A DNA stretch of 64,000 bases from Prevotella multiformis DSM 16608 (lineage in GTDB: Bacteria > Bacteroidota > Bacteroidia > Bacteroidales > Bacteroidaceae): positions 42,683 through 106,682 of the forward strand of contig NZ_GL872282.1 of the NCBI RefSeq assembly GCF_000191065.1, read 5' to 3'. The translations under genes were made by a program, and so were the position numbers. Shown here piece by piece: positions 10,847-59,502 of this stretch. Within the stretch, counting starts at the first letter, position 1. Each line of letters opens with the position of its first letter. A model generated the notes under the pieces. The model did no database searches and had not been told where the DNA came from. It saw nothing but the letters and a program-made list of their open reading frames with translations.

Positions 10847-11330
10847 GGTTCTTCCGTTAAATGCGTGGATGCTTTTCGTATAGCTTTAACGGAAGAACCG
10901 AAGTTATCCATAAAAAAACATTGCCAAGACCGTCGACTGTCTATCCTGTTGTCATCCTCCGATACAAAGACCTTCTCATTTTTATACGTTGAAAAGACAG
11001 ATAAGAATATGAAAATTCGTTACATAATTTCAAACAAAACAGCTGCAGATATAAAAAACACGTGTAAAAAGCAGGTTTGTAACCAGCAGTCAATCAGTTG
11101 GTTATCAAATCGTTCGTAAAAGGTGCCTGATTGGACTCCAAAAGGGCGTTGGTAACACGCTGAAAGAGCACCTGTTGCAAGTCAATCAGGCATCTTTTAG
11201 AAGCCAGAAGAGCATGTGTAAGCTTTGGTTGCATGAAAACAGTTTACAGACACCGATGATATGGGAATAAGTCGTTTGTAGAAGACTGTAAGATACGCTG
11301 ATGGATGGCCATCGCATCTATTTCCTACGC
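10847..11330 (+). repeat. 600-bp dispersed element, copy A (right end decayed)
   Basis: It begins with a 53-bp palindrome at 10847-10899: GGTTCTTCCGTTAAA, a 23-nt loop, then TTTAACGGAAGAACC. The body is similar to 19826-20432, 28601-28975 and the minus strand of 58811-59413. The best-conserved block (11121-11218) differs from copy C at about two positions. Homology fades around 11330, before the expected right end. It is non-coding: the apparent frame is not maintained in other copies. Confidence 0.85.
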
Positions 11331-13420: not shown

Positions 13421-14623
13421 ATGGATAAGAACAGTAAAATATACATTGCAGGACACCACGGACTGGTGGGCTCTGCTATTTGGAACAATCTGCTTCAGCG
13501 AGGGTACACAAACCTCGTCGGACGAAGTCATAAGGAACTGGATCTGACCGACCAGCAGGCTGTAAAGAGATTCTTCGACAAGGAGAAGCCTGACGCTGTT
13601 GTCCTTGCCGCCGCTTTTGTCGGAGGAATTATGGCCAATTCTCTGTACCGTGCCGATTTCATCATGCAGAACATGAAGATACAGTGCAATGTCATAGAGC
13701 AGAGTTATCTCCATGGAGTAAAGAAACTCCTTTTCCTCGGAAGTACCTGTATCTACCCGAAGAATGCGCCGCAGCCCATGCGTGAGGATGCCCTTCTGAC
13801 ATCACCGTTGGAATATACCAACGAGGAATACGCCATTGCCAAGATTGCCGGACTGAAAATGTGCGAGAGCTATAACCTCCAGTATGGAACCGATTACATA
13901 GCCGTTATGCCGACCAACCTCTACGGCCCGAATGATAATTTCCATCTGGAGAACTCCCATGTAATGCCTGCCATGATGCGAAAGGTCTATCTTGCCAGAC
14001 TCATCCATGAGGGGGACTGGGATGCCATCCGTAATGACATGGACAGACGGCCGATCAATCCGACAGACAAGCTCCGCAAGGAGATCGGGGAAGGAAATGT
14101 AGACGGCAGGAGCGACAAGGAACGCATCCTGCAGGCGCTTGCTTTCTACGGCATCGGAAACAACTGCGTGACATTGTGGGGAGACGGCAGTCCGCTGCGT
14201 GAGTTCCTGTGGAGTGAAGACATGGCGGATGCCAGTGTCCATATTCTGCTGAATGTAGACTTTAAAGACATCATCGGCATAGAGAAGTATTCCAGCGTCT
14301 TTTACGGATCCAGGATTGACGGGACGGTAGACCGCAACAACTCTGAGGGACGGGGCGGAGCGATCCCCTCATTAGGCGAGATACGCAACTGTCACATCAA
14401 TATCGGGACCGGCAAGGAACTGACCATAAAGGAACTTGCAGAGCTTGTCAGGAAGACGGTTCATTTCGGAGGAGACATTATCTGGGATGCGGAAAAACCC
14501 AATGGTACTCCGCGCAAACTTATCAACGTAGACAAGCTGCACAGCCTCGGATGGACACACAAGGTGGAGATTGAGGAAGGTGTGGAAAAACTCTATGAAT
14601 GGTATCAGAACAGCTTGAAATGA
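13421..14623 (+). CDS. fcl: GDP-L-fucose synthase
   Basis: A 400-residue SDR with GHHGLVGSAIW at 11-21, LGSTCIYPKNAPQPM at about 106-120 and the Tyr137/Lys141 pair in EYAIAK. It catalyses 3,5-epimerisation and 4-reduction of GDP-4-keto-6-deoxymannose to GDP-L-fucose. It is about 80 residues longer than the E. coli enzyme because of an insertion near residues 190-240 (DWDAIRNDMDRRPINP...), a form usual in Bacteroidetes. It completes the pathway begun by gmd. Confidence 0.95.
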   Translation: MDKNSKIYIAGHHGLVGSAIWNNLLQRGYTNLVGRSHKELDLTDQQAVKRFFDKEKPDAVVLAAAFVGGIMANSLYRADFIMQNMKIQCNVIEQSYLHGVKKLLFLGSTCIYPKNAPQPMREDALLTSPLEYTNEEYAIAKIAGLKMCESYNLQYGTDYIAVMPTNLYGPNDNFHLENSHVMPAMMRKVYLARLIHEGDWDAIRNDMDRRPINPTDKLRKEIGEGNVDGRSDKERILQALAFYGIGNNCVTLWGDGSPLREFLWSEDMADASVHILLNVDFKDIIGIEKYSSVFYGSRIDGTVDRNNSEGRGGAIPSLGEIRNCHINIGTGKELTIKELAELVRKTVHFGGDIIWDAEKPNGTPRKLINVDKLHSLGWTHKVEIEEGVEKLYEWYQNSLK

Positions 14624-14730
14624 ACGGATGCCAGACGACGGGGCGAATCGGACAGGTCGGCTCCGTTCGGTCTGGCAGATCCACGAACAAAACGAGTCCG
14701 GACAATTTATTCATTTTAACCTTTAAAAAT

Positions 14731-16845
14731 ATGAAGAAACAAGTATTACTAACCGCGGCAGTACTGTCCGCAACCAGCATGATGGCACAGAAACTGACGT
14801 ACCCGCAGGCACCGAAGGACGGGACGGTAGACACTTACTTCGGTGTGCAGGTGGCCGATCCCTACCGTCCGTTAGAGAACGACAGCTCCAAGGCGACGGC
14901 TGAGTGGGTGGCTGCAGAAAACAAGGTGACACAGGAATATCTCTCCCGCATTCCGTTCCGGGGGAAACTCCTGAAGCGCATGAAGGAACTGGCTAATTAC
15001 GAGAAGGTGTCTGCTCCTTCTTACATCAAGTCCATCGGCAAGTGGCTCTTCTATAAGAACGACGGTCTGCAGAACCAGAGTGTTCTCTATATGATGGACC
15101 GGCTCGGAGACGAGAAGAACGCCCGGGTTCTCCTCAACCCCAACCAGCTGTCAACCGACGGGACCGTGGCTCTGAAAGGCATTTATTTCTCTCACAACGG
15201 GAAATATGCCGCCTACTCCATTTCGCGCAGCGGGAGCGACTGGCAGGAGTTTTATGTGATGGATGCCAAGACCGGCAGACTGCTTGACGACCATCTTGTG
15301 TGGGCAAAGTTCTCGAGTGCGGCATGGAAAGGCGACGGCTTCTATTATAGTGCTTATGACGCACCGCAGAAAGGACATGAATTCAGCAATGTAAATTCGG
15401 TACAGAAGATTTACTACCACAAGGTCGGCACTCCGCAGTCTGAGGATATTCTCTTCTATCAGAATCCTGCCAATCCCATGCGTTTCTATTCCGTTTACGT
15501 GAATGAGGACGAGACGATGATGTTCCTCTATGAGAGCGGTGCAGGATCCGGAAACCGTGTTTATGTACGCGATCTGCGCCAGCCGGAAGGCCAGTTCATC
15601 CAGATGACATCCGACCTAGATCTGCAATACAGTCTGATAGAGACTGTCGGGGACAGAATGTATTTCCTCACGAATGACGGTGCCCCGAAGAACCGGCTGA
15701 TGGTCACCGACCTCGGGCATCCTGGTTTCAACGAGTGGAAGACCCTCGTCCCGGAATCCAAGGATATGCTCGAAGCTGTTACCTTTGCTGACGGGAAGAT
15801 GATCCTCAACTACATGAAGGATGCTTCCAATCATGCCTATGTCTATTCCATGGACGGGAAACAGCTGTCTGAGATCAAACTTCCTACGGTGGGCAGTGCT
15901 GCTTTCTACGGCGAAAAAGACAGGAAAGAAGTATTTTATTCATTCTCGTCTTTCACCGTTCCGACGAGCAATTACCAGTACGACCTCGCCACAGGTGCCA
16001 GCAAGGTTTACTCTGCACCAAAGGTGAAATTCAAGGAATCTGATTATGTAAGTGAACAGGTTTTCTATCCCAGCAAGGATGGAACAAGGATTCCTCTTTT
16101 CATCACTTATAAAAAGGGATTGAAGCGCAATGGCAGAAACCCGGTCTATCTCTATGCTTACGGAGGTTTCAATATTGCCATGCCTCCCTACTTCTCTTCC
16201 AACCGTATCCCATTCCTTGAGAACGGTGGAATCTACGCACAGGCCTGTCTGCGCGGTGGCAGTGAATACGGAGAAGAATGGCACATTGCCGGTACGAAAA
16301 TGCAGAAGCAGAATGTTTTCGATGATTTCATCGCCGCTGGTGAATGGCTCATCAAGAATAAATACACAAGCAAAGACTACCTTGCCATTGTCGGCGGGTC
16401 AAACGGCGGACTGCTTATCGGTGCTTGCATGACACAACGCCCCGACCTTTTCAAGGTCTGTATTCCGGAAGTGGGGGTAATGGATATGCTGCGTTACCAT
16501 AAGTTCACCATCGGATGGAACTGGGCACCGGATTATGGGACAAGTGCAGACTCAAAGGAGATGTTCGAGTACCTCCGTGCCTACTCTCCCCTCCACAACC
16601 TCCGGCCGGGCACACGTTATCCGGCTACAATGATTACTACTGCCGACCACGACGACCGTGTCGTACCGGCTCACTCGTTCAAGTTCGCAGCGACTCTGCA
16701 GGCTGACAATGCTGCCGATACACCGACGATCATCCGCATTGACACCAAGGCGGGACATGGAAGCGGAAAGCCCTTGTCGAAGCAGCTGGAAGAGCATGCG
16801 GATATTTATGGCTTCATCCTGTACAACATGGGGCTGAAGTATTAA
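14731..16845 (+). CDS. Prolyl oligopeptidase family serine peptidase (S9A), secreted
   Basis: The frame is open from 14599, but the ATG at 14731 begins a clear signal peptide (MKKQVLLTAAVLSATSMMA) and gives a 704-residue protein. The N-terminal beta-propeller (about 40-430) is followed by an alpha/beta-hydrolase domain. The catalytic triad is visible: Ser557 in GGSNGG, Asp in TADHDDRVVP (about 641) and His676 in KAGHGSG, spaced as in prolyl oligopeptidase. It should cleave short peptides after proline in the periplasm. It is probably monocistronic or distal to fcl. Confidence 0.93.
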   Translation: MKKQVLLTAAVLSATSMMAQKLTYPQAPKDGTVDTYFGVQVADPYRPLENDSSKATAEWVAAENKVTQEYLSRIPFRGKLLKRMKELANYEKVSAPSYIKSIGKWLFYKNDGLQNQSVLYMMDRLGDEKNARVLLNPNQLSTDGTVALKGIYFSHNGKYAAYSISRSGSDWQEFYVMDAKTGRLLDDHLVWAKFSSAAWKGDGFYYSAYDAPQKGHEFSNVNSVQKIYYHKVGTPQSEDILFYQNPANPMRFYSVYVNEDETMMFLYESGAGSGNRVYVRDLRQPEGQFIQMTSDLDLQYSLIETVGDRMYFLTNDGAPKNRLMVTDLGHPGFNEWKTLVPESKDMLEAVTFADGKMILNYMKDASNHAYVYSMDGKQLSEIKLPTVGSAAFYGEKDRKEVFYSFSSFTVPTSNYQYDLATGASKVYSAPKVKFKESDYVSEQVFYPSKDGTRIPLFITYKKGLKRNGRNPVYLYAYGGFNIAMPPYFSSNRIPFLENGGIYAQACLRGGSEYGEEWHIAGTKMQKQNVFDDFIAAGEWLIKNKYTSKDYLAIVGGSNGGLLIGACMTQRPDLFKVCIPEVGVMDMLRYHKFTIGWNWAPDYGTSADSKEMFEYLRAYSPLHNLRPGTRYPATMITTADHDDRVVPAHSFKFAATLQADNAADTPTIIRIDTKAGHGSGKPLSKQLEEHADIYGFILYNMGLKY

Positions 16846-17056
16846 GGGAGAATCGCCGTCTCTCTGAAGCCAATGGAGCCGTGCCGGCTGTCCCATCGCA
16901 GGAAGCCTGTTGTGAGGCATAGGCTTCACTCCGTTGGCTTCTGTCCGCGAGAAACGGAACGGCGGCTGCGTTAAACGAAAGGAACAAAGCGAAGCCTGCC
17001 CCCATGGAACGGGTGTCTGGCAATGCGGCTTCTTTAGAACATTACCTTATATAAGT
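16846..17056. other. Short intergenic region with nested inverted repeats
   Basis: GAAGCCAATGGAG (near 16866) pairs at 12 of 13 positions with CTCCGTTGGCTTC (near 16929). Inside lies a second stem GAAGCCT/AGGCTTC. There is no T-run, so it is not a classical terminator. An upstream extension of the yaaA frame into this region (from 16934) is rejected. Confidence 0.45.
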
Positions 17057-17854
17057 ATGCAGATTCTGTTAGCGTCAGCAAAGACAATGAACCGTACCAC
17101 CAAGGTTCTCACTCTACCTATGCATCTGCCTCGTTTCCGAAAGGAAGCGGGGCAGATGGCGTTAGAGCTGGGCGATCTCTCTGTAGAGACACTTGCCAAA
17201 GAACTCCATTGTAGCCGGAAAATTGCAATGGAAAACAAACTGCGGTATCAGGATTTCTTCAATGAGGAAGGACTGCTGCCCGCATTGCTCGCTTATTATG
17301 GGCAGGCATACAAATGCCTGAAGGCACAGGAATATAGTCTGGAGGATATGTGCTTTGCCGACCGGCATCTTTGGATTACAAGTTTTCTTTATGGATTGTT
17401 ACGCCCTTTGGACCTCATCCATCCATACCGGCTGGAGGGGAAGACCCAGCTGTCTTCCACAGGTGCGAAGAACATGTTTGCTTATTGGAAACCCCGTCTC
17501 ACCGATATGCTCATCAAGGCTGTGAAGAAAGACGACGGTATTCTTGTTCATCTGGCGACAGAAGAGTTCCAACATCTCTTCGACTGGAAACGGATGCAAA
17601 AAGAAATAAGCATTATCCAGCCGCTCTTCATGGTGGAACAGGAAGACCGCCTCAAAGCTGTCAGTGTCTATTCCAAAAGCTGCAGAGGGGCTATGACAAG
17701 CTATATCCTGCGCAAACGGCTTGACAGTCCGGCCGACCTTCTTGGCTTTGAGTATGAAGGATTCGTCTATCAGCCGGGTTATGGAGACGAGGCGCATCCG
17801 CATTTCATCTCACAAATGCCGGTACAATCCTCCTTTAAACCAGGGAAATACTGA
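17057..17854 (+). CDS. yaaA: YaaA family peroxide stress protein
   Basis: A 265-residue protein of the YaaA/DUF328 family. E. coli YaaA lowers free intracellular iron and limits Fenton damage during peroxide stress, and it has a DNA-binding cantaloupe-type fold. Family features seen are MQILLASAKTM at the N-terminus, ITSFLYGLLRPLDLIHPYRLEG (about 108-130), LATEEFQHLF and VYSKSCRGAMTSYIL. The frame extends upstream to 16934, but the ATG at 17057 starts exactly where the family starts. A small ORF follows 60 bp later. Confidence 0.92.
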   Translation: MQILLASAKTMNRTTKVLTLPMHLPRFRKEAGQMALELGDLSVETLAKELHCSRKIAMENKLRYQDFFNEEGLLPALLAYYGQAYKCLKAQEYSLEDMCFADRHLWITSFLYGLLRPLDLIHPYRLEGKTQLSSTGAKNMFAYWKPRLTDMLIKAVKKDDGILVHLATEEFQHLFDWKRMQKEISIIQPLFMVEQEDRLKAVSVYSKSCRGAMTSYILRKRLDSPADLLGFEYEGFVYQPGYGDEAHPHFISQMPVQSSFKPGKY

Positions 17855-18112: not shown

Positions 18113-18256
18113 ACAGGCTAATACACTGCCTACGGAAAAAATATTTTTCCTCATGCGCACATTCAATTCGTAAGTGCGGAATCCCTCGATGAGTAATAGT
18201 TTGCAAAAACTATGAAGAACACCGGGGGACTGCGGCAAGGGATCTGCGCCTCCTAA

Positions 18257-18412
18257 GAGCATATTCAAGTATCGAGATATAAAATAAATAATGGGCCGGC
18301 GAATAATGATATTTCTGAAATTGATTTTAAGAAGAATTCCGTTATTGTAACCACATACGATAATAGGGGAAAGGAAGAATTGATCCATCCTGGGAGACCA
18401 ATCATTATATAA
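18257..18412 (+). pseudogene. C-terminal fragment of an unknown AT-rich gene
   Basis: A 51-codon frame without a start, from just after a TAA at 18254 to a TAA at 18410-18412. It reads like real protein (EHIQVSRYKINNG ... NSVIVTTYDNRGKEEL ... HPGRPIII). No upstream continuation is found. Given the neighbours it is most likely the remnant of an Rhs-associated toxin tip or an immunity gene. The family is not recognised. Confidence 0.4.
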
Positions 18413-18533
18413 ACATAACTTGTACTGGTGAGAGTGGCTTAATTAGATTTTAGTCATGGAATTATCCTTTCATCACAGAATGTCTGGAAATTAGCGGTAT
18501 AAATGGAATGCACCAATTGTTTATTTTGCCAAG

Positions 18534-19118
18534 ATGAAGAAAATCATAGGAGTATTTTTGATTATAGGAGTGCTTTGTGCAATAGGAGATGTTTGCATAG
18601 ACAGAGTACCTCATAATTATAAAATTATAAATGCGAATTTACAAAAAATAAAAATAAAAGGAAATACTTATGACAATTATTATTTGCTGACATTCGATGT
18701 AGTATATTGCAATTTTACTTATGAATTTTTTAAAGCGCCATTTCCTCCCGGGAGAAATGGAAGCATTGATAGCTTGTGTTCTATTAAAGTGTTGGATAAG
18801 AGAGGATATGACATGACTGACAGGTTCTCTCAGGACAGTATACAGCGCAATGAAGGAAGAAGTCTGTATGTTGTCTATCCTAAACGATCAGATAGTACAG
18901 TGATAGAAGCAGATGTGGAAAAGTCCGTTATGAACATTACCAATAAGATAAATTCCAACATTGATGAAAATAGAATGTTTAGAATTGAGACGGGGAGAAT
19001 ACTAAAGCTGAGACATACAAAGATGACTCCAGCATCGTTAAAAGTGGAATTCAAAGGGAGAGAGATTACAAGTAAAGTAGTTAGTAGGGGTTCTACCGTT
19101 TACTATGCTTTCGACTGA
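18534..19118 (+). CDS. Hypothetical membrane-anchored or exported protein
   Basis: A 194-residue AT-rich gene whose product starts with a hydrophobic signal or anchor (MKKIIGVFLIIGVLCAIGDVC), followed by a polar, beta-rich domain. No family is recognised. It lies directly before an Rhs fragment, overlapping it by 14 bp in another frame, in a patch of Rhs/immunity debris, so it may be an immunity or accessory protein of a lost Rhs system. Base composition differs strongly from the flanking chromosome, which suggests transfer. Confidence 0.55.
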   Translation: MKKIIGVFLIIGVLCAIGDVCIDRVPHNYKIINANLQKIKIKGNTYDNYYLLTFDVVYCNFTYEFFKAPFPPGRNGSIDSLCSIKVLDKRGYDMTDRFSQDSIQRNEGRSLYVVYPKRSDSTVIEADVEKSVMNITNKINSNIDENRMFRIETGRILKLRHTKMTPASLKVEFKGREITSKVVSRGSTVYYAFD

Positions 19119-19614
19119 CAATAAAGAACCTCACGTTGATTTTATCACCTGCGACAGCTTGAACCGTATGCGGATGATGACTTGTCCTGACGGCGAGGTC
19201 GTCACCTATCACTACAACTACAATGCGGCAGGACAAATAGATGGTCTTACGAGCAATAAACCGGGACGTCAGAGCGTTATTGTTGACAGGATAGGTTACG
19301 ACAAAGAGGGTCATACGGTCTATACGAAGCTCGGCAACGGCACGGAGACAACCTATACCTACGAGAGGCAGCGTGAGCGTCTGCAGGCGATGCGCCTTGC
19401 AGCGGACGGTCAGACTGTCATGGAGAACAGGTATCGTTATGATGCTGTGGAAAATATCCTCGGTATCACGAATGCCGCCAACCCAACGTCGCTGACGAAA
19501 CTCAACAAGGCGAAGCTGGGAGGAAGGAGTATGCATACATGTCAGTTGGAAAGAAAGTGCAATCACCTGAAGATTATGGTGGTCAATAAAAATGGAATGC
19601 AGACAAGTCCGTAG
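19105..19614 (+). pseudogene. Rhs/YD-repeat protein fragment
   Basis: The frame encodes typical YD repeats: YHYNYNAAGQIDGL, IGYDKEGHTVYTKLGNGTETTYTYE and NRYRYDAVENILGITNAANP. These are the spacings of bacterial Rhs/Tc-toxin shells of Bacteroidetes. Only about 130 residues of shell remain. The long N-terminal shell and the C-terminal RHS core with its toxin tip are both missing, and the frame drifts into unrelated sequence after GGRSMHT. Its G+C is higher than the neighbouring debris. It is a relic of a polymorphic toxin gene. Confidence 0.8.
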
Positions 19615-19715
19615 ACCTCTTTTATTAATGATCTCAGGCTGTGCCGTATATTTATTCTACAGTATTATAGTTGTTTATTACGATACTCAAGCAATAGAAT
19701 CTGGTTCAATTATAT

Positions 19716-19825
19716 GGTTTTTCCGTTAAATGTATAGATTGGAAGAATAAAGGCTTATACACTTGCAGGGTATGACTGTCCAACATTAGACGGCCTTACA
19801 AAGGAGGATAAACTACAAGATAAAA
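19716..19825 (-). repeat. Detached inverted right arm of the 600-bp element
   Basis: Starts GGTTTTTCCGTTAAA and matches, base for base in many stretches, the first 110 bp of the element at 58811 (for example CACTTGCAGGGTATG and GGAGGATAAACTACAAGATAAAA). It corresponds to the right arm, inverted, and abuts complete copy B, so copy B is flanked by two right arms in opposite orientation. Confidence 0.75.
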
Positions 19826-20432
19826 GGTTCTTTCGTTAAATGTGTAGATGCTTTTCATATAGCTTTAACGGAAGAACCGAAGTGATTGATGAAACAAAAA
19901 CATGGCCAAGACTGTCAACTGTCTATCCTGTCATCAGCCTCTGAGTCAAAGACCTTTTCAATTTTAATACGTTGAAAAGACAGATAAGATTTTGAAAGAC
20001 CATTACATAATTTCAAACAAATCATCTGTAAATGTAAAGAACACGTGCAAAAATCGAGTTTGTAACCAGCAGTCAATCAATCGGTTGTTAAGTCGTTTGT
20101 AAGAGGTGCCTGATTGGACTTCAAAAGGGCGTTGGTAACACGCTAAAGGAGCACCTGTTGCAAGTCAATCAGGCATCTTTTAGAAGCCAGAAGAGCATGT
20201 GTCAGCTTTGAACTGCACAAAAATGTTTACAAACACCGATGATATGGAAATAAAATGTATGTAAAAGACGGAAAGACAGGCTGATGGACAGGCATCGTAT
20301 CAATTTGTCTTTTCTGCCCTTTTATCTTGTAGTTTACCTTCTTTTGTAAAACCATCCGCTTGGGGAAAGTCATACTATGCAAGTACACAAGCTTTTTATT
20401 CTATTCCCATCTATCCATTTAACGGAAGAACC
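19826..20432 (+). repeat. 600-bp dispersed element, copy B (complete)
   Basis: 607 bp running from a palindromic left end (GGTTCTTTCGTTAAA at 19826-19840 with TTTAACGGAAGAACC at 19864-19878) to the right end TTTAACGGAAGAACC at 20418-20432. It contains the conserved core with GCGTTGGTAACACGC and AAGTCAATCAGGCATC. No long ORF is present. It interrupts the Rhs/immunity region: gene remnants start immediately after the right end. Confidence 0.88.
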
Positions 20433-20460
20433 AAAAGATACCCTAGAGGCTTTCAATTCC

Positions 20461-20686
20461 ATGGAACTAATATGTTGCCAAGAACTTATGGACTTGTATC
20501 TCTGGGAAACAGGATGCACCTAAGGTGTTTATCTTTGATTTGGGAGAAGATGAAAATGGACGGAATCACTTTTCACTTTGCGCTTATAGTAATTATGTGT
20601 CTTGTGCGATTCCAGGGACATTATGCTTCAAAAATAAGAGTCACGATGCTGTCCATACAGAAGACCTCTATATATCTTATATTTGA
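20461..20686 (+). pseudogene. Frameshifted small gene, likely immunity-type remnant
   Basis: Starting at ATG 20461, the frame reads MELICCQELMDLYLW. After a GGG at 20504-20506 the protein-like sequence continues one frame over: KQDAPKVFIFDLGEDENGR ... CFKNKSHDAVHTEDLYISYI, to a TGA at 20684-20686. Removing one G would give a continuous product of about 74 residues. The single-frame 83-codon ORF here is a mixture and not the real product. The upstream part may have been removed when repeat copy B arrived. No family is recognised. Confidence 0.5.
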
Positions 20687-20799
20687 CTATCAACAAGTTA
20701 CATTCCACGGGGTTCTCATGTAAGGGAGGGAAGAGGTCTCAATGCCAAAAAGGGATCGTATCCAGAAAAAACATTGTATTTTTTAACCATAAATAAGCA

Positions 20800-21189
20800 A
20801 TGGATTTTACACTATTTGAAAATGCAACAAGCGTATCTGCTATATACAAGAGATCTCTGCCTACTTTTACGAAAATAGAAGTTGTCAAGATCACTATTAT
20901 ACCAGGAGAAGATACTGAACTGATTTTAACTTTAGATACAACAGAACTGCCTGAAGTTTTACCTTTAAAGTGGTCCAAAAAAAGAATAAATACTGTTCAG
21001 TTCGAAATAGACTTTATAGATGTTGATCTAAAAAAAATCTGTCTTACTAAAAGTATGGATTATAATTTTATAATGCAGAGAAAGGATGAAAAAAATGTTG
21101 TTATATTAAAGAATCTTTTAGATAATAAGGAAATTACTTTTGATTCAAAGTGGGCTTATATTAGGAATATATCTGGATATGAAAAATAA
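20800..21189 (+). CDS. Imm50-like immunity protein
   Basis: A 129-residue AT-rich protein whose pattern resembles immunity protein 50: an early beta strand with 'I.PGEDTELILTLDTTELPE', then PLKWSKKRINTVQFEIDFIDV (about 50-70), and a C-terminal ITFDSKWAYIRNISGYEK. Imm50 proteins are thought to neutralise polymorphic toxins. No intact toxin remains next to it; the nearest is the Rhs fragment at 19105-19614. It is therefore an orphan immunity gene, possibly retained for protection against neighbours. The family call rests on motif memory only. Confidence 0.55.
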   Translation: MDFTLFENATSVSAIYKRSLPTFTKIEVVKITIIPGEDTELILTLDTTELPEVLPLKWSKKRINTVQFEIDFIDVDLKKICLTKSMDYNFIMQRKDEKNVVILKNLLDNKEITFDSKWAYIRNISGYEK

Positions 21190-21439
21190 GACCACCCTAA
21201 TGCCGGTGGGAAGGATATGGCCTGCTCTGACGGCAGGCAACCTCCTGAAGAAACTCACGGCTGGGTTCAGAAAGTGGCACTCTATGGGAATCAGGATTTG
21301 AGCATGCTGTCCGTCCATCTCGGGAAGGTGGCGCTAAGAATATAGACAATAATGCCATAAAACATGGAGCTGGTCCTGGTCCTGCTCTTATTTTATTATA
21401 CCAGCATCAGGATATGTTCTTTTACAAAATAAACTTATT
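21190..21439. other. Decayed sequence between immunity-type genes
   Basis: Higher G+C than the flanks. One frame stays open (DHPNAGGKDMACSDGRQ...) from 21189 to about 21345 but has no start and no recognisable family. It is probably Rhs-related debris. Confidence 0.35.
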
Positions 21440-21730
21440 ATGGAATATTCATATTTTATAAAGAGAAATATCAACTTTTTTAAAAATAATGGATATACTC
21501 TATATCCGAATGGGAATCAAGTATATAGACGGATAGATGATTATGATGTGCTGATCACAGATTATACAGGGAAGAAACTATCATTAGATCTTTTGATTGT
21601 CTTTGAACTTTGGATAAAAAATAATATAACAGATGTCCTCATCTTTAGAAAGATGTATAAGAGAACATTTTTTTGTCCTAGAATGGAAAAGATTGATAAA
21701 GAAATAGCAAAGATAATAGAAGAATTTTAG
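21440..21730 (+). CDS. Hypothetical 96-residue protein
   Basis: An intact AT-rich ORF (MEYSYFIKRNINFFKNNGYTL... ending IDKEIAKIIEEF) with no signal peptide, probably a small alpha/beta protein. It sits in the series of immunity-like genes and may be one itself. I do not recognise a family. The composition fits the surrounding transferred patch. Confidence 0.5.
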   Translation: MEYSYFIKRNINFFKNNGYTLYPNGNQVYRRIDDYDVLITDYTGKKLSLDLLIVFELWIKNNITDVLIFRKMYKRTFFCPRMEKIDKEIAKIIEEF

Positions 21731-21750
21731 CCTTCGAATCCTATGTATAG

Positions 21751-22090
21751 ATGATAAATAGAATGGTACACTCTATACCTGACAACTTCTATGATGTGTT
21801 TAGTGCTGTGCCAGCAAATGAGTCTGGAATGCTAAACGATAGACGTACAGGGTGGAAAGCTCTTTTACCAATTTGCAATAGACGATCAGGACTTAGCGTA
21901 CATCCAGATATTAATTTATCTGTTACAAAGGGCAGCTTTGGTACAGTCGGTTGTTACGGAAAATCTAAATGAATGGAAATTCTTTAATAAGTTGATTACT
22001 CCTAGTGGGACACATAGGATGATTTTTAACATCAAAGGTAATCCAAATTGTGTCGATGAATGTAAAGCTGGTTCTCGTCTTGTTCAATAG
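21751..22090 (+). pseudogene. Frameshifted small gene in immunity region
   Basis: The first part reads MINRMVHSIPDNFYDVFSAVPANESGMLN. Near 21836-21840 the protein-like reading moves one base forward into TIDVQGGKLFYQFAIDDQ ... LLQRAALVQSVV ... GTHRMIFNIKGNPNCVDEC, to a TAG at 22088-22090. The second half looks much more like protein than the continuing first frame, so a one-base insertion (an extra A in TAAACG) is the simplest explanation. The intact product would be about 112 residues. The function is unknown. Confidence 0.45.
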
Positions 22091-22256
22091 CTTATTTACC
22101 ATACAAGCTTGTGTTGGACAAGAAAGAGTAGATGGGAAAATAGATGTTGCAGAACATGTTAAGAAGGAGGTTTCTGTGCCGTCAGACACATCTGTTAATG
22201 GCATAATATTAGACGATACCGTTTCTTTAAATAATATTTTCGAGAGTCTCATGTAA
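22056..22256 (+). CDS. Small secreted or lipoprotein-like hypothetical protein
   Basis: 66 residues from the ATG at 22056 (a GTG at 22050 is in frame). A signal peptide-like start, MNVKLVLVLFNSLFTIQAC, is followed by an acidic tail ending LNNIFESLM. It may be a lipoprotein (Cys in IQAC), though the box is not ideal. It overlaps the end of the preceding frameshifted gene and its stop overlaps the next start, so it could be a truncated N-terminal remnant. Confidence 0.4.
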   Translation: MNVKLVLVLFNSLFTIQACVGQERVDGKIDVAEHVKKEVSVPSDTSVNGIILDDTVSLNNIFESLM

Positions 22257-22789
22257 TGGAGTTTTACAGAGGTTTCAGAATAGTAAATCAAAATCATTTG
22301 AGCATGTTTTTAAAGAATAAAAAAAGAATTATCAATTATTTCGTGTTGATTATAGGTTTTGGCGTGTGGGAATCATGTCATTCTAAAGTCCAACATGTTT
22401 TAGTCCCTGTAGATAATGTCAGATCTTATAAACTGAGCGAAAATCACGACACAACAACTATTATCGAAGAAAGAGATGACTACTCTCGAACCGTAATTAA
22501 ATTTTATAAAGACAACAGTGAGGTTTTTACTTCCGACTACGGTGGACATAAAGAATTACTGATGTCCACAACAGAGATGTTGGATACCGTATATTCTGGA
22601 GACGCTAATTATAGGAATCACCGGATTCAGATAAAACAAGAAAACCCCAATCTGTTTTCTACATCTATATATCATATTGATGTAAAGCCTGTGTTGCTTT
22701 TAACAATCTATTATGACCATTCATATAGCATAAAAGCTATCCGTAATTGGTTAGTATATACGACTTACAAATCGAAACATGACGAATGA
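22256..22789 (+). CDS. Hypothetical lipoprotein
   Basis: The frame opens at 22256. The ATG at 22304 gives MFLKNKKRIINYFVLIIGFGVWESC, a plausible lipoprotein signal, so the real product is probably about 161 residues. The mature part is polar and beta-rich (RSYKLSENHDTTTIIEERDDYSRTV...). No family is recognised. It is strongly AT-rich, the last gene of the accessory patch. Confidence 0.5.
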   Translation: MEFYRGFRIVNQNHLSMFLKNKKRIINYFVLIIGFGVWESCHSKVQHVLVPVDNVRSYKLSENHDTTTIIEERDDYSRTVIKFYKDNSEVFTSDYGGHKELLMSTTEMLDTVYSGDANYRNHRIQIKQENPNLFSTSIYHIDVKPVLLLTIYYDHSYSIKAIRNWLVYTTYKSKHDE

Positions 22790-22869
22790 GAGTTCTTTCA
22801 ACAATATGAGATGCAAGAGAAGGGGGGGGCGTACTGGTCTTGATTTAATTAAAAGTGATGGTTGCATGA

Positions 22870-23033
22870 GAGAGTGTGTCAAAACTCAAAATTCAGAAAA
22901 GCCTCCCCTTCCTATTGACGGTTCTGATCCCCTTAGACATCAAACAACCGCTATCATCGAGCTATCGGCTCTTTGGCAGCGGTTGTTCTTTACAAATGGC
23001 AGCTGTCTTGAAGTCGGGTTTTGACACGCCCTC
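22870..23033. mobile_element. MITE-like element, 164 bp
   Basis: Terminal inverted repeats GAGAGTGTGTCAAAACTC (22870-22887) and the complement of GAGGGCGTGTCAAAACCC (23016-23033) match at 15 of 18 positions. They resemble ends of Bacteroidetes insertion sequences that begin GAG.GTGTGTCAAAA. Inside there is no ORF, but a 10-bp palindrome AACAACCGCT/AGCGGTTGTT is present. No clear target duplication was seen. It lies just downstream of the valS stop and could act as its transcript end. Confidence 0.6.
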
Positions 23034-23059: not shown

Positions 23060-25753
23060 TTACTTTTTCCTCAGCTCTTCAAGATTTGCCTTCAAAGCAG
23101 CAATCTTTTCTTCGGAGTCGCTCTGTTTCTTGCGCTCACGCTCAACGACGGCCTCAGGTGCATGGGCAACGAAGTTCTCGTTAGAGAGTTTCTTCTTGAT
23201 GCCGGCGAGGAAGCCTTCGAGGTGCAGGAGTTCCTTCTCCTGCTTCTCTATTTCAGCCGCCACATCGATCAGGTCGCCGACAGGTACTGCAAACGAGTCC
23301 GTTCCGACCATGAAACCGGAGGCATCCCCCGACTTCTCCGTTACGACTTCGATGGCTTTCAGGTTTGCCATCTTTGTGATGACGCTGTTGTATGCCTCGT
23401 AGTTGTTCTGGCCGATGGCATCGAGTTCCAGTTCTACCTTCGGAGCGATGTTCTTCTGGTTGCGGACGGTACGCACACCCCCGACGATGGCCTTTACCTG
23501 CTCGATGTCTTCCATGAGCCTCAGCTCGTCCTTGCCTGGAGCCGGGAGGCGCAGCTCGTCACACATAATGCTCTCGCCGTCTTTGCGGTCGTAGAGGTGC
23601 TGCCACAATTCTTCGGTGATGAACGGCATGAACGGATGCAGCATCTTCAGCAGGGCATTGAAGAAACGGAGTGTCGCCTCGTAGGTCGTCCTGTCAATCG
23701 GTTTGCCGTATTCGGGTTTGATCATCTCCAGGTACCAGCTTGAGAACTCGTCCCAGAAGAGGCGGTAGACAGTCATCAGTGCCTCGGAGATACGGTAGCT
23801 TCTGAACTGTTCGTCCATCTCTGCATTCACAGCCTTCAGCTTGGCATCGAACCACTCCACGGCAATCCGGCTTGCCTGCGGCTGTTCCGTGTCGGCTGTC
23901 TGCCAGCCCTGTACCAGCCGGAAAGCATTCCAAATCTTGTTGTTGAAGTTACGTCCCTGCTCGCAAAGTGTCTCGTCGAAGAGGATGTCGTTGCCTGCCG
24001 GAGCGGAAAGCATCATGCCCATGCGGACACCGTCGGCACCGTATTTCTCGATGAGCATGATCGGGTCGGGAGAGTTACCGAGGCTCTTACTCATCTTACG
24101 TCCGAGCTTGTCACGTACAATACCTGTAAAGTAGACGTGCTTGAACGGGAACTTGCCACGGTACTCGTAGCCCGCCATGATCATGCGTGCCACCCAGAAG
24201 AAGATGATGTCCGGACCCGTTACGAGATCGCTGGTAGGATAATAGTAGCTGATTTCCTCGTTGTCCGGATGGTTGATGCCGTCGAAGACGGAAATCGGCC
24301 ACAGCCAGCTTGAGAACCATGTGTCCATACAGTCGCTCTCCTGTTCGAGGTCGGCAGCGGTTACTGAAGGGTTGATTTCCTGTGCCAACTTCAATGCCTC
24401 TTCTTCTGTCTCTGCAACAACGGTTGCATTCTTACCCTCCGCATCTTTGAAGTAATAGGCAGGTATACGATGTCCCCACCAGAGCTGGCGGCTGATGCAC
24501 CAGTCCTTGATATTCTCGAGCCAGTGGCGGTAAGTGTTCTTGTACTTTTTCGGATAGAACTCGATTTCGTCGTCCATGACGGGAGAGAGGGCGATGTCGG
24601 CAAAGTGCTGCATCCTGAGGAACCACTGCGTGGAGAGCTTCGGCTCGATCGGCACGTTCGTACGCTCGGAGAATCCCACCTTGTTGTCATAGTCCTCAAC
24701 CTTCTCCATCAAGCCCGCAGCTTCCAAGTCCTTTGAAATCTGCTTACGTACATCCATACGGTCCTGCCCCACATAGAGGCCCGCCGCCTCAGAGATTGTT
24801 CCGTTATCATTGAAGATGTCGATGGTTTCCAGTCCATGCTTCAAACCAAGCGCATGGTCGTTTACGTCGTGAGCAGGTGTTACCTTCAAACAACCTGTGC
24901 CGAACTGAATGTCAACGTATGAGTCCTCAATAACTGGAATCACACGGTTTACCAATGGAACGATGACATGCAGCCCCTTCAACCAAGTATTCTTAACGTC
25001 CTCTGGGTTGATACACATGGCTGTGTCCCCCATGATAGTCTCCGGACGAGTAGTGGCAACAACTGCATAGTAGCCCTTCTCATCCTTGTGCATCACGTTG
25101 CCTTCATCCTTGCGTTCAACCCTTGCCTGGTCTTCCGAAGCAACATAATATTTAAGGTGATAGAGCTTTGAATGTTCATCCTTATAGATTACCTCCTCAT
25201 CGGAGAGGGCTGTCTGTGCCTGCGGATCCCAGTTGACCATGCGCACGCCACGGTAGATGTAACCTTTATTATACAGGTCGCAGAACACCTTGATGACGCT
25301 CCGGCTGCGGGTCTCGTCCATGGTGAAAGCCGTACGGTCCCAGTCGCAGGAACAACCCAGGCGGCGCAGCTGTTTGAGGATAATGCCACCGTGCTCGCGT
25401 GTCCAGTCCCATGCGTGCTCAAGGAACTGCTCACGGGTGAGGTCGGTCTTCTTGATGCCTTCCTGTGCCAGTCTGTTCACGACCTTCGCCTCAGTCGCAA
25501 TGCTGGCGTGGTCAGTGCCCGGCACCCAGCAGGCATTCTTGCCCTCCATGCGGGCACGCCTGACCAAGATGTCCTGAATCGTATTGTTCAGCATATGTCC
25601 CATGTGGAGCACCCCCGTAACGTTGGGCGGCGGAATCACCACGGTATAAGGCTCACGGCCATCAGGCTTAGAACTGAAAAGCTTGTTGTCCAGCCAGTAC
25701 TGGTACCATTTCGATTCCACAATCTGTGGATCATACTTGCTTGCTAAATCCAT
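23060..25753 (-). CDS. valS: Valine--tRNA ligase
   Basis: 897 residues, a class Ia synthetase. The HIGH-type motif lies in [17 protein letters not shown] (about 42-58). The editing (CP1) domain has [14 protein letters not shown]-like sequence ([14 protein letters not shown]). KMSKS lies in [14 protein letters not shown], followed by the anticodon-binding domain and a C-terminal coiled coil ([23 protein letters not shown]...) typical of ValRS. It charges tRNA-Val and edits threonine. It is transcribed away from mazG; a TACTTTTG box (25800-25807, minus) may be its promoter. Confidence 0.98.
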
Positions 25754-25829
25754 TTGTTTCGTATAATATTATTTCTTTATTATCTTTAAAATAACGCTGC
25801 AAAAGTACAAAAAATCCACCTAAAAAGCG

Positions 25830-25837
25830 TATCTTTG
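25830..25837 (+). promoter_or_regulatory. Probable -7 box for mazG
   Basis: TATCTTTG, followed by GC, 63 nt before the mazG TTG. It lies back to back with a minus-strand TACTTTTG (25800-25807) for valS. The -33 elements are not clear. Confidence 0.4.
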
Positions 25838-25899
25838 CAACAATAATAGTACCCGGATGAGTACTTTAACGTATATCTTCAACATTAAACATCAAGACA

Positions 25900-26781
25900 T
25901 TGCATACAAAAGAAGAGAAACTCGAAGCCTTTGCCCGGCTTCTGGATATTCAGGAGCGTTTGCGTAAAGAGTGCCCTTGGGACAGGAAACAAACCAATGA
26001 AAGCCTGCGTCCCAATACGATAGAGGAGACTTTCGAGCTGGCAGACGCCCTCATGAAGAACGACTCCAAGAACATCTGCAAGGAACTGGGGGATGTCATG
26101 GAACACGTCATTTTCTATTCCATGCTCGGCGAAGAAAAGGAAGACTTCGATGTGGCTGATGTCTGCAATGCGCAGTCAGACAAACTCATGTTCCGCCACG
26201 ACTTCATCGACTGGACAGGATGGAGCGTGACACATCCGGATATGACCGTCAATGCTTCCGGACAGGTTGTCTACAAAGACGAACTTGGAAAGGAAGCTGC
26301 CGACAGCCAGCAGGCGACTCCCGACACGGCTTCGCAGGTGGAATCGACATGGGAACAACGCAAGCAGCGCGAACGTGACGGCAACACCTCCGTACTTTCC
26401 GGCGTACCCGATTCGCTGCCCAGCCTTATCAAGGCCTACCGCATCCAGGACAAGGCACGCAACGTAGGCTTCGACTGGAAGGAGAAGGAGCAGGTGTGGG
26501 AGAAGGTCTATGAGGAGCTGGACGAACTGAAGGCTGAATTGAAGAAAGACGACAGACAACATTCAACCGAGGAGCTGGGCGACTTCCTTTTCTCGGTCAT
26601 CAATGCGGCACGTCTCTATCATCTCAACCCGGACAATGCACTGGAACATACTAACCAGAAGTTTATCAGACGGTTCAGTTACATTGAAGAGAAAGCCAAG
26701 GAAAAAGGTGTCACTATCAAAGACCTGACGCTTGCGAAGATGGACCGGCTGTGGGAAGAAGCCAAGACGGCTGACCGCTGA
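25900..26781 (+). CDS. mazG: Nucleoside triphosphate pyrophosphohydrolase MazG
   Basis: About 293 residues with two MazG repeats. The first (about 10-100) has RKECPWDRKQTNESLRPNTIEETFELADAL and ELGDVMEHVIF; the second (about 175-270) has KARNVGFDWKEKEQVWEKVYEELDEL and EELGDFLFSVIN. The paired ExxE/ExxD sets bind magnesium. It hydrolyses NTPs and dNTPs to monophosphates, affecting damaged nucleotides and ppGpp levels. An insertion of about 60 polar residues separates the repeats. No ATG fits the family start; a TTG at 25900 does. Confidence 0.93.
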   Translation: MHTKEEKLEAFARLLDIQERLRKECPWDRKQTNESLRPNTIEETFELADALMKNDSKNICKELGDVMEHVIFYSMLGEEKEDFDVADVCNAQSDKLMFRHDFIDWTGWSVTHPDMTVNASGQVVYKDELGKEAADSQQATPDTASQVESTWEQRKQRERDGNTSVLSGVPDSLPSLIKAYRIQDKARNVGFDWKEKEQVWEKVYEELDELKAELKKDDRQHSTEELGDFLFSVINAARLYHLNPDNALEHTNQKFIRRFSYIEEKAKEKGVTIKDLTLAKMDRLWEEAKTADR

Positions 26782-58655: not shown

Positions 58656-59502
58656 AGGGAATGAATTTCTGTCTGCAAAGTTACTAAATCTTATCGGATG
58701 GCAAGCAGGCAGGAATGGATTTTTCTACACAAGGCAGACATCCATCATCAGCCTCAGGTCCGTCTGATATTGGACGCCTGCAGCAAAAGCCAGATCAACC
58801 CGTTTAAGAGAGTTCTTCCGTTAAATACATAGATTGGACATGGATAAAGGCTTATGCACTTGCAGGGTATGGCTGTCCAGGATCAGAGGGGCTTCAAAGG
58901 AGGATAAACTACAAGATAAAATGCAGAAAAGGAAAATTGATACGATGCCTGTCCATCAGCCTGTCTTTCCGTCTTCTACAACCAACTTATTCCCACATCA
59001 TCGGTGTTTGTAAACTGTTTTCATGCAACCCAAGCTGACATATGCCCTTCTGGCTTCTGAAAGATGCCTGATTGACTTGCAACAGATGCTCTTTTAGCGT
59101 GTTACCAACGTCCTTTTGAAGACCAATTAAGCGCCTTTTACAAACGACTTAATAACCAATTGATTGACTGTTGGTTACAAACCTACTTTCTGCACGTTTC
59201 TTTTATATTTGCAGATGATTTGTTTGGGATTATGTAATGACTTTTAAGAATCTCATCTGTCTTTTCACCATATTAAATTGAAAAGACTTTTATATCGGAG
59301 GATGATAACAGGATAGCCAGCTGACGGTCTTGGCTGTGTTTTTGTTGAATGAATCACTTCGGTTCTTCCGTTAAAGCCATACGAAAAGCATCCAAGCATT
59401 TAACGGAAGAACCTTTCAAAAGAAGGAAATCCAGCAATTTTTTGGGGATTGTACAAAAGCAGGAACCGGCCGGTTTTATCCGTACATCCGTCCTTTCCGT
59501 CC
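58656..59502. other. Long intergenic region holding repeat copy D
   Basis: 847 bp with no gene. Two thirds is repeat element copy D (58811-59413); the rest has no recognisable feature. Confidence 0.75.
58811..59413 (-). repeat. 600-bp dispersed element, copy D (complete, inverted)
   Basis: 603 bp in reverse orientation relative to copies A-C. The right end is AGTTCTTCCGTTAAA (58811-58825); the left-end palindrome is GGTTCTTCCGTTAAA ... TTTAACGGAAGAACC (59361-59413, 53 bp). The most diverged copy: in the block equivalent to the A/C reading frame it has an in-frame TAG, showing the element is not coding. No target-site duplication is evident. Confidence 0.88.

Follow-up and report, generated by a model that had tools for sequence, protein, structure and literature searches.

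We analyzed positions 18113-22870 of a 64-kb stretch of the Prevotella multiformis DSM 16608 genome (contig NZ_GL872282.1; the whole stretch is referred to below as the window, and all coordinates are positions within it) and conclude, with a probability of about 0.8, that the region is what erosion has left of a tandem Rhs toxin/immunity array, with immunity genes retained. The conclusion is based on the recurrence of its pieces as Rhs core, C-terminal toxin and immunity modules in larger arrays, both in the same genome and in those of relatives. A first-pass annotation had described the region as a decayed polymorphic-toxin locus that retained immunity genes, and its content supports that description: the toxins are deleted or broken, one of them down to its last codons, and the genes for Imm50 and for two proteins of 96 and 177 amino acids (aa) are whole. 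Partner toxins of these three genes were not found in the genome itself, which is 98% complete.

Rhs modules within the region and in larger arrays

The region is a mosaic of Rhs-core pieces and toxin tails, interspersed with immunity genes, some whole and some broken, and with a repeat element; every retained gene lies on the + strand. The RHS_repeat domain is matched at 19105-19614 (7.7e-6), and the DNA of 19147-19546 is 78-91% identical to Rhs cores of the genome's own two larger arrays (78-89% for these two), P. vespertina (G003) and P. ihumii (G186). A second, 83-bp Rhs remnant is found further downstream at 21193-21275; in P. ihumii, P. vespertina and one of the genome's own arrays its counterpart is located about 350 bp upstream of their matches to 19153-19546. 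Homology is very strong for the Rhs core, for 21329-21780 and for the 177-aa gene, and reaches about 1e-10 at best for a fourth whole small gene, encoding 194 aa. DNA homology of the 177-aa gene starts at 22276, and its start codon may lie further in than annotated below. The Rhs fragment, Imm50-like gene, three whole small open reading frames (ORFs), frameshifted genes and repeat of the first-pass annotation were all recovered by homology and by the ORF map. The parts are as follows.

18257..18409, + strand: possible immunity-gene remnant, weak (a 33-aa stretch is 39% identical, E 0.002, to part of a 162-aa immunity-like ORF from the P. ihumii Rhs array)
18534..19118, + strand: whole 194-aa ORF starting with a hydrophobic leader; immunity-gene candidate (relatives at 23-28% identity)
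19147..19546, + strand: Rhs core fragment (DNA alignment to intact Rhs cores)
19542..19589, + strand: final codons of a toxin gene, fused to the Rhs core (read by eye; same reading as the toxin end before the immunity gene in the genome's own second Rhs array)
19544..19712, + strand: frameshifted start of an immunity gene that the repeat truncates (at the DNA level 84.6% identical to a whole 149-aa ORF in the genome's own second Rhs array)
19716..20436, + strand: MITE-like repeat (110-bp inverted end piece, then a full copy at 19825-20436)
20437..20723, + strand: remnant with ORFs in shifted frames (20472-20723 and 20525-20686; no homologue outside the repeat)
20800..21189, + strand: whole Imm50 gene, 129 aa (PF15594, 45.7 bits, curated cut-off 27.1)
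21193..21275, + strand: short Rhs remnant, 83 bp (76-80% identity, E 1e-13)
21329..21439, + strand: toxin-tail remnant with indels (alignment to P. ihumii)
21440..21730, + strand: whole 96-aa immunity gene (95% aa identity to P. ihumii)
21751..22090, + strand: remnant in shifted frames (21751-21972 and 21938-22090), perhaps toxin, by position only (no family, no homologue)
22050..22256, + strand: 68-aa ORF that opens with a leader-like sequence and may be a truncated immunity gene (by eye; no family)
22256..22789, + strand: whole 177-aa lipoprotein-like immunity gene (homology to relatives)
22870..23033, no strand: closing stretch, 164 bp, with 16-bp inverted ends, the right border before valS

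In order to place the whole small genes in context we compared 249 genomes of the genus, the window's own and 248 others; P. vespertina, P. ihumii and P. koreensis (G085) carry the same genus label as the window's genome. The small genes are sparsely distributed (2 to 6 of the 249 genomes), and their homologues occupy 15 other places, 11 of which are beside Rhs sequence: six of six for the 177-aa gene, one of one for the 96-aa gene, and two of four each for the Imm50 and 194-aa genes. At G066 the Rhs assignment was made by eye, and at G085 and G254 by eye with the support of weak matches (E 0.002 and 4e-4). The first-pass annotation had named homologues lying mostly away from toxin loci as the pattern that would speak against it, and this pattern was not seen. 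The comparison it suggested, with relatives that might carry intact Rhs toxins and matching immunity genes, gave a positive result for the Imm50, 96-aa and 177-aa genes, and its proposal that the small proteins are candidates for new immunity families is supported for those of 96 and 177 aa, which follow Rhs toxins in relatives; the 194-aa protein stays a candidate.

The larger arrays that provide this context include two in the genome itself. Tandem toxin/immunity modules follow each of them, and one has a 2996-aa ORF. In the second of these arrays (L092/L093), a toxin/immunity cassette spanning about 1.6 kb is 98.5-100% identical per 200-bp step to one in P. ihumii (L087). The Rhs flanks of this cassette are 82-88% identical on the left and 92, then 77% identical on the right, a pattern expected from a recent exchange through recombination within the flanks.

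The 177-aa family and a HExxxH Rhs toxin

Homologues of the 177-aa gene are present in 5 of the 248 other genomes. In P. ihumii a 52%-identical homologue overlaps a 3066-aa Rhs gene at its end. In P. koreensis the end of an Rhs tip is overlapped by a distant homologue, which is followed by a second one, and the tips of these two toxins are 51% identical. A HExxxH motif is invariant in all seven aligned toxin tips. Of the 249 genomes searched, nine gave a match to the tip; the window's own is not among them.

We built a profile of the 177-aa family from six members and examined the sequence behind each tip. The profile identifies a homologue directly behind the HExxxH tip in G186, G085, G240, G197 and G191 (E 5.8e-74 to 4.9e-10), with two homologues in tandem in G240, and in G169 a whole homologue is located downstream of a stop-ridden tail of the HExxxH toxin. 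Direct succession was thus found in five genomes with a whole toxin and one with a broken tail, among the nine with the toxin; in another, G110, the locus is ended by a contig edge. Decoys were 234 ORFs from similar loci, one of which is the known P. vespertina member of the family; the best other decoy (9.7e-6) lies in the P. ihumii array and is the immunity-like ORF that 18257-18409 resembles. Additionally, a scan for a single peptide pattern over one genome per species in 84,980 species returned four loci, those of P. vespertina, P. ihumii, P. koreensis and OH937_COT-195, the last with the identical order of HExxxH tip and 177-aa homologue.

Gene position thus supports the assignment of the 177-aa family as the putative cognate immunity of the HExxxH Rhs toxin. 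Its lipoprotein-like leader, recognized by eye, suggests that protection would take place in the envelope, where the protein may bind and block a metal-dependent enzyme carrying the HExxxH motif. No Pfam or NCBIfam model matches the tip or the 177-aa protein above cut-off, and the protein has no matches in plasmid records. A structure model of the 177-aa protein (pLDDT 63.2), in which an N-terminal helix is followed mostly by strands, was set aside; compared with the PDB, the model gave nothing below E 0.001 (best 0.025, a retinoic-acid-binding protein, TM 0.25). The toxin model, built from three sequences, reached pLDDT 39.8, and the best hit of a PDB sequence search with a profile of two toxin tips was a kinase at E 0.14, which we take as chance.

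Metallopeptidase toxins Tox-MPTase1-5, with HExxH spacing, are described in Zhang et al. 2012 (PMC3482391). The partner toxin resembles them in being an Rhs-linked tip with a His-Glu...His motif, and differs from them as they appear there in the HExxxH spacing of all seven tips and in matching no Pfam or NCBIfam model above cut-off. Among the open papers found, none is by its title about an HExxxH Rhs toxin, which is no proof of absence; the pair formed by this toxin and the 177-aa immunity protein appears undescribed, while orphan immunity itself is a known phenomenon.

The 96-aa protein was found in one of the 248 other genomes, P. ihumii, at 95% identity. There its gene begins about 8 nt after an Rhs toxin gene, the end of which was read by eye; in this one genome the gene is therefore directly downstream of a toxin. 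The toxin gene contains an insertion element, presumably of IS66 type. Among 200 genomes the toxin gives a strong match in P. ihumii only, with three weak, stop-containing matches elsewhere, and it was not found in the window's genome. No Pfam or NCBIfam model fits the 96-aa protein above cut-off either.

The Imm50 gene clearly exceeds the curated Pfam cut-off, and NCBIfam gives nothing for it. Two of the four homologues elsewhere are 33-aa fragments. In G095 the homologue is encoded 6 nt after an Rhs gene with a Tox-HNH-EHHH tip (PF15657, 2e-19), the only one of the four other places where a toxin listed as a partner adjoins Imm50; this toxin family was not found in the window's genome. Zhang et al. 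list Imm8 and Imm50 in the Tox-EHHH row, and Tox-HHH and Ntox24 in the Imm50 row.

The 194-aa gene is only a weaker immunity candidate, judged from its relatives. It has four, all distant (23-28% identity); two are encoded in Rhs arrays and none has a readable toxin upstream. No Pfam or NCBIfam family matches the protein above cut-off. A second member of its family in the same genome (L101, 6211-9961) has as neighbours a 353-aa ORF that fits no Pfam family and a pair of nearly identical 78-aa ORFs; nothing nearby matches Rhs. Anti-phage defence models matched none of four proteins scanned.

Retention of immunity genes and alternative explanations

In order to determine whether the whole genes bear marks of constraint, we compared substitutions at nonsynonymous and synonymous sites (dN/dS); all values are pairwise averages in which the lineage of the window is not isolated. 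The 96-aa gene and its P. ihumii counterpart differ by 16 synonymous and 5 nonsynonymous changes with no indels (dS 0.37, dN 0.022, dN/dS 0.06, bootstrap 0.01-0.15). The toxin tail just upstream has four gaps in 111 bases in the same comparison, and from this combination we conclude that the antidote outlived its toxin. For the 177-aa gene dN/dS is 0.33 (0.18-0.64) against P. vespertina and 0.46 (0.27-0.76) against G169; synonymous sites are saturated against P. ihumii. Both genes look constrained by selection. The Rhs core fragment shows 0.17-0.26 against six intact copies, while two pairings of intact copies give 0.06; relaxed constraint would be expected to produce such a difference.

We propose that recombination between Rhs cores and insertion of mobile elements would have removed the toxins, and that the immunity genes would have been kept as protection against Rhs toxins that related Prevotella carry now. 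Similar remains exist in G169. One set there has the 177-aa homologue behind the broken toxin tail and adjoins what we take to be an Mrp-like gene; another consists of Rhs and Imm50 fragments and adjoins a gene that is presumably groEL. Two AT-rich graveyards of that genome (L089, 12600-17890; L103, 6586-10169) have 33.1% and 30.2% GC against flanks of 41.9% and 40.6%, and hold Rhs scraps and small immunity-like ORFs.

Several observations weigh against an eroded array with retained immunity. Homology search returned no matches outside the repeat for 20437-20723 and 21751-22256. Rhs sequence is absent near the Imm50 homologue of G008 and near two of the 194-aa relatives, one of them in the window's own genome. 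Behind the HExxxH tip, the profile match in G006 is weak (E 0.0054) and worse than one decoy (9.7e-6), and the ORF in G200 fails the 177-aa profile (E 2.4). The dN/dS values could have been lowered by the partner lineage alone. A strict Bacteroidetes-type promoter pattern occurs nowhere in the region and is not found before the Imm50, 96-aa or 177-aa genes; a looser pattern occurs once, inside the start of the 194-aa gene, against 0.35 expected.

These observations bear differently on three other explanations. The whole immunity genes could be pure debris, not yet decayed and functionless now, as the broken modules around them and the missing promoter pattern would allow, and pairwise dN/dS is silent on when constraint ended. 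We consider this unlikely nonetheless, given three to four whole ORFs among broken ones, the contrast between the indel-free 96-aa gene and the gapped toxin tail adjoining it, and the recurrence in G169 of a whole 177-aa homologue behind a broken toxin tail. The absence of Rhs near some Imm50 and 194-aa relatives would also be expected if the small genes were unrelated AT-rich genes that landed by Rhs scraps by chance. This we regard as highly improbable, since homologues of the 177-aa and 96-aa genes are beside Rhs at all of the places found (six and one), the 177-aa family tracks a single toxin family, and the distribution of the small genes within the genus is sparse.

The exchange of a cassette through its Rhs flanks between this genome and P. 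ihumii, together with the tandem cassettes of the genome's own two larger arrays, brings to mind a dormant reservoir, in which silent toxin/immunity cassettes behind a main Rhs gene await recombination into use. The region has neither a main Rhs gene nor a whole toxin, and only immunity genes are left to recombine, which makes such a role very doubtful here. We therefore retain the explanation of an eroded tandem array that kept its immunity genes.

Composition, repeat element and relation to known loci

The sharp difference in composition from the flanks reported in the first-pass annotation is real: GC content is 36.7% at 18113-22870 against 49.6% for the window, where the lowest value among non-overlapping stretches of the same length is 47.0%. 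Low GC as a mark of decay was ruled out, because such cassettes are usually AT-rich (29-39% GC for nine toxin tips and immunity genes of the genome's own larger arrays). The region is bordered by yaaA with a 65-aa ORF on one side and by valS on the other, and the five flanking genes scanned (13421-17854 and 23060-26781) are ordinary, encoding an epimerase, a prolyl oligopeptidase, YaaA, ValS and MazG. In a search for an empty site, YaaA was absent within about 1.5 kb beyond valS in all 12 relatives examined, so no pre-insertion site can be defined; as YaaA never adjoins valS in them, the region may sit at a gene-order break at about 23060. Beyond valS, the genes of several of the 12 relatives resemble one another. 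The end pattern of the closing stretch at 22870-23033 occurs twice in the window against 0.08 expected. No Rfam family scores above its gathering score in the window, hence no structured RNA was recognized there.

MITEs (miniature inverted-repeat elements) are short, lack an ORF, have inverted ends, generate target-site duplications and occur in many copies. The repeat element at 19825-20436 shares the inverted ends, target-site duplications, lack of an ORF and copy number, and at about 605 bp it is large for the class. Of 129 candidates, 40 were scored, and 39 of these are further long matches with 80-95% identity to it. Genome-wide, the 17-base pattern at its ends is present 164 times with at most two mismatches, compared with once for a reversed control, which suggests roughly 80 copies. 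Both ends were found in 24 of 29 fetched copies. Allowing shifts of up to 3 bases, the 8-bp flanking direct repeats are perfect in 7 of these 24 and agree at 7 or more of 8 positions in 15, against 0.17 and 2.3 of 24 expected from a control with mismatched flanks; no target-site duplication was seen around the copy in the region. Stop codons interrupt each of the six reading frames of the 605-bp consensus, and the element therefore carries no transposase of its own. The same repeat is also found in the window at 58811-59413 (full length) and 10847-10899 (partial end). Among the open papers listed on MITEs in Prevotella, judged by title and abstract start, none describes it.

Orphan immunity has been described in several settings, which we compare here; it is also treated in PMC12483513. 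The polyimmunity loci of polymorphic toxin systems known from PMC3482391 are rows of unrelated immunity genes that share one orientation and are not interrupted by whole toxin genes. In the region, Imm50, the 96-aa and 177-aa genes and perhaps the 194-aa gene are all on the + strand; no whole toxin lies between them, but Rhs-core and toxin-tail remnants do. In contrast to such loci, its whole genes are 250 to 1681 bases apart rather than separated by small gaps, and the flanking genes examined include no recombinase gene. Orphan Rhs immunity genes of Serratia marcescens Db10, located downstream of Rhs loci and shown to protect (PMC10539506), likewise lack their own toxin and have a partner toxin in a related strain. 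The Serratia orphans follow a working Rhs-immunity pair; none is left at the site described here, where protection would be our inference. The rAID arrays of orphan immunity genes (PMC12247911) also occur in Bacteroidales, tied to a recombinase and to type VI secretion system immunity genes, while the region is of Rhs-array origin and the five flanking genes scanned include no recombinase.

We extend these comparisons tentatively, at slightly less than even odds, to propose that Prevotella Rhs arrays erode selectively, with toxins lost and immunity genes under selection; that such graveyards are the birthplace of orphan-immunity and polyimmunity loci; and that the 177-aa lipoproteins and their HExxxH partner constitute an undescribed envelope-acting toxin-immunity family. 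The region provides a worked example of a toxin lost and an antidote retained, in which present-day toxins of relatives can be linked to the retained genes, and it yields three families that no Pfam or NCBIfam model matches above cut-off, two of immunity proteins (96 aa and 177 aa) and one of toxins. It also demonstrates how intact arrays in relatives allow unrecognized small AT-rich genes beside Rhs scraps to be assigned. The pattern fits bacteria keeping antidotes against weapons now carried only by their neighbors, and if protection is indeed conferred, the locus would be a record of past encounters between Prevotella species.

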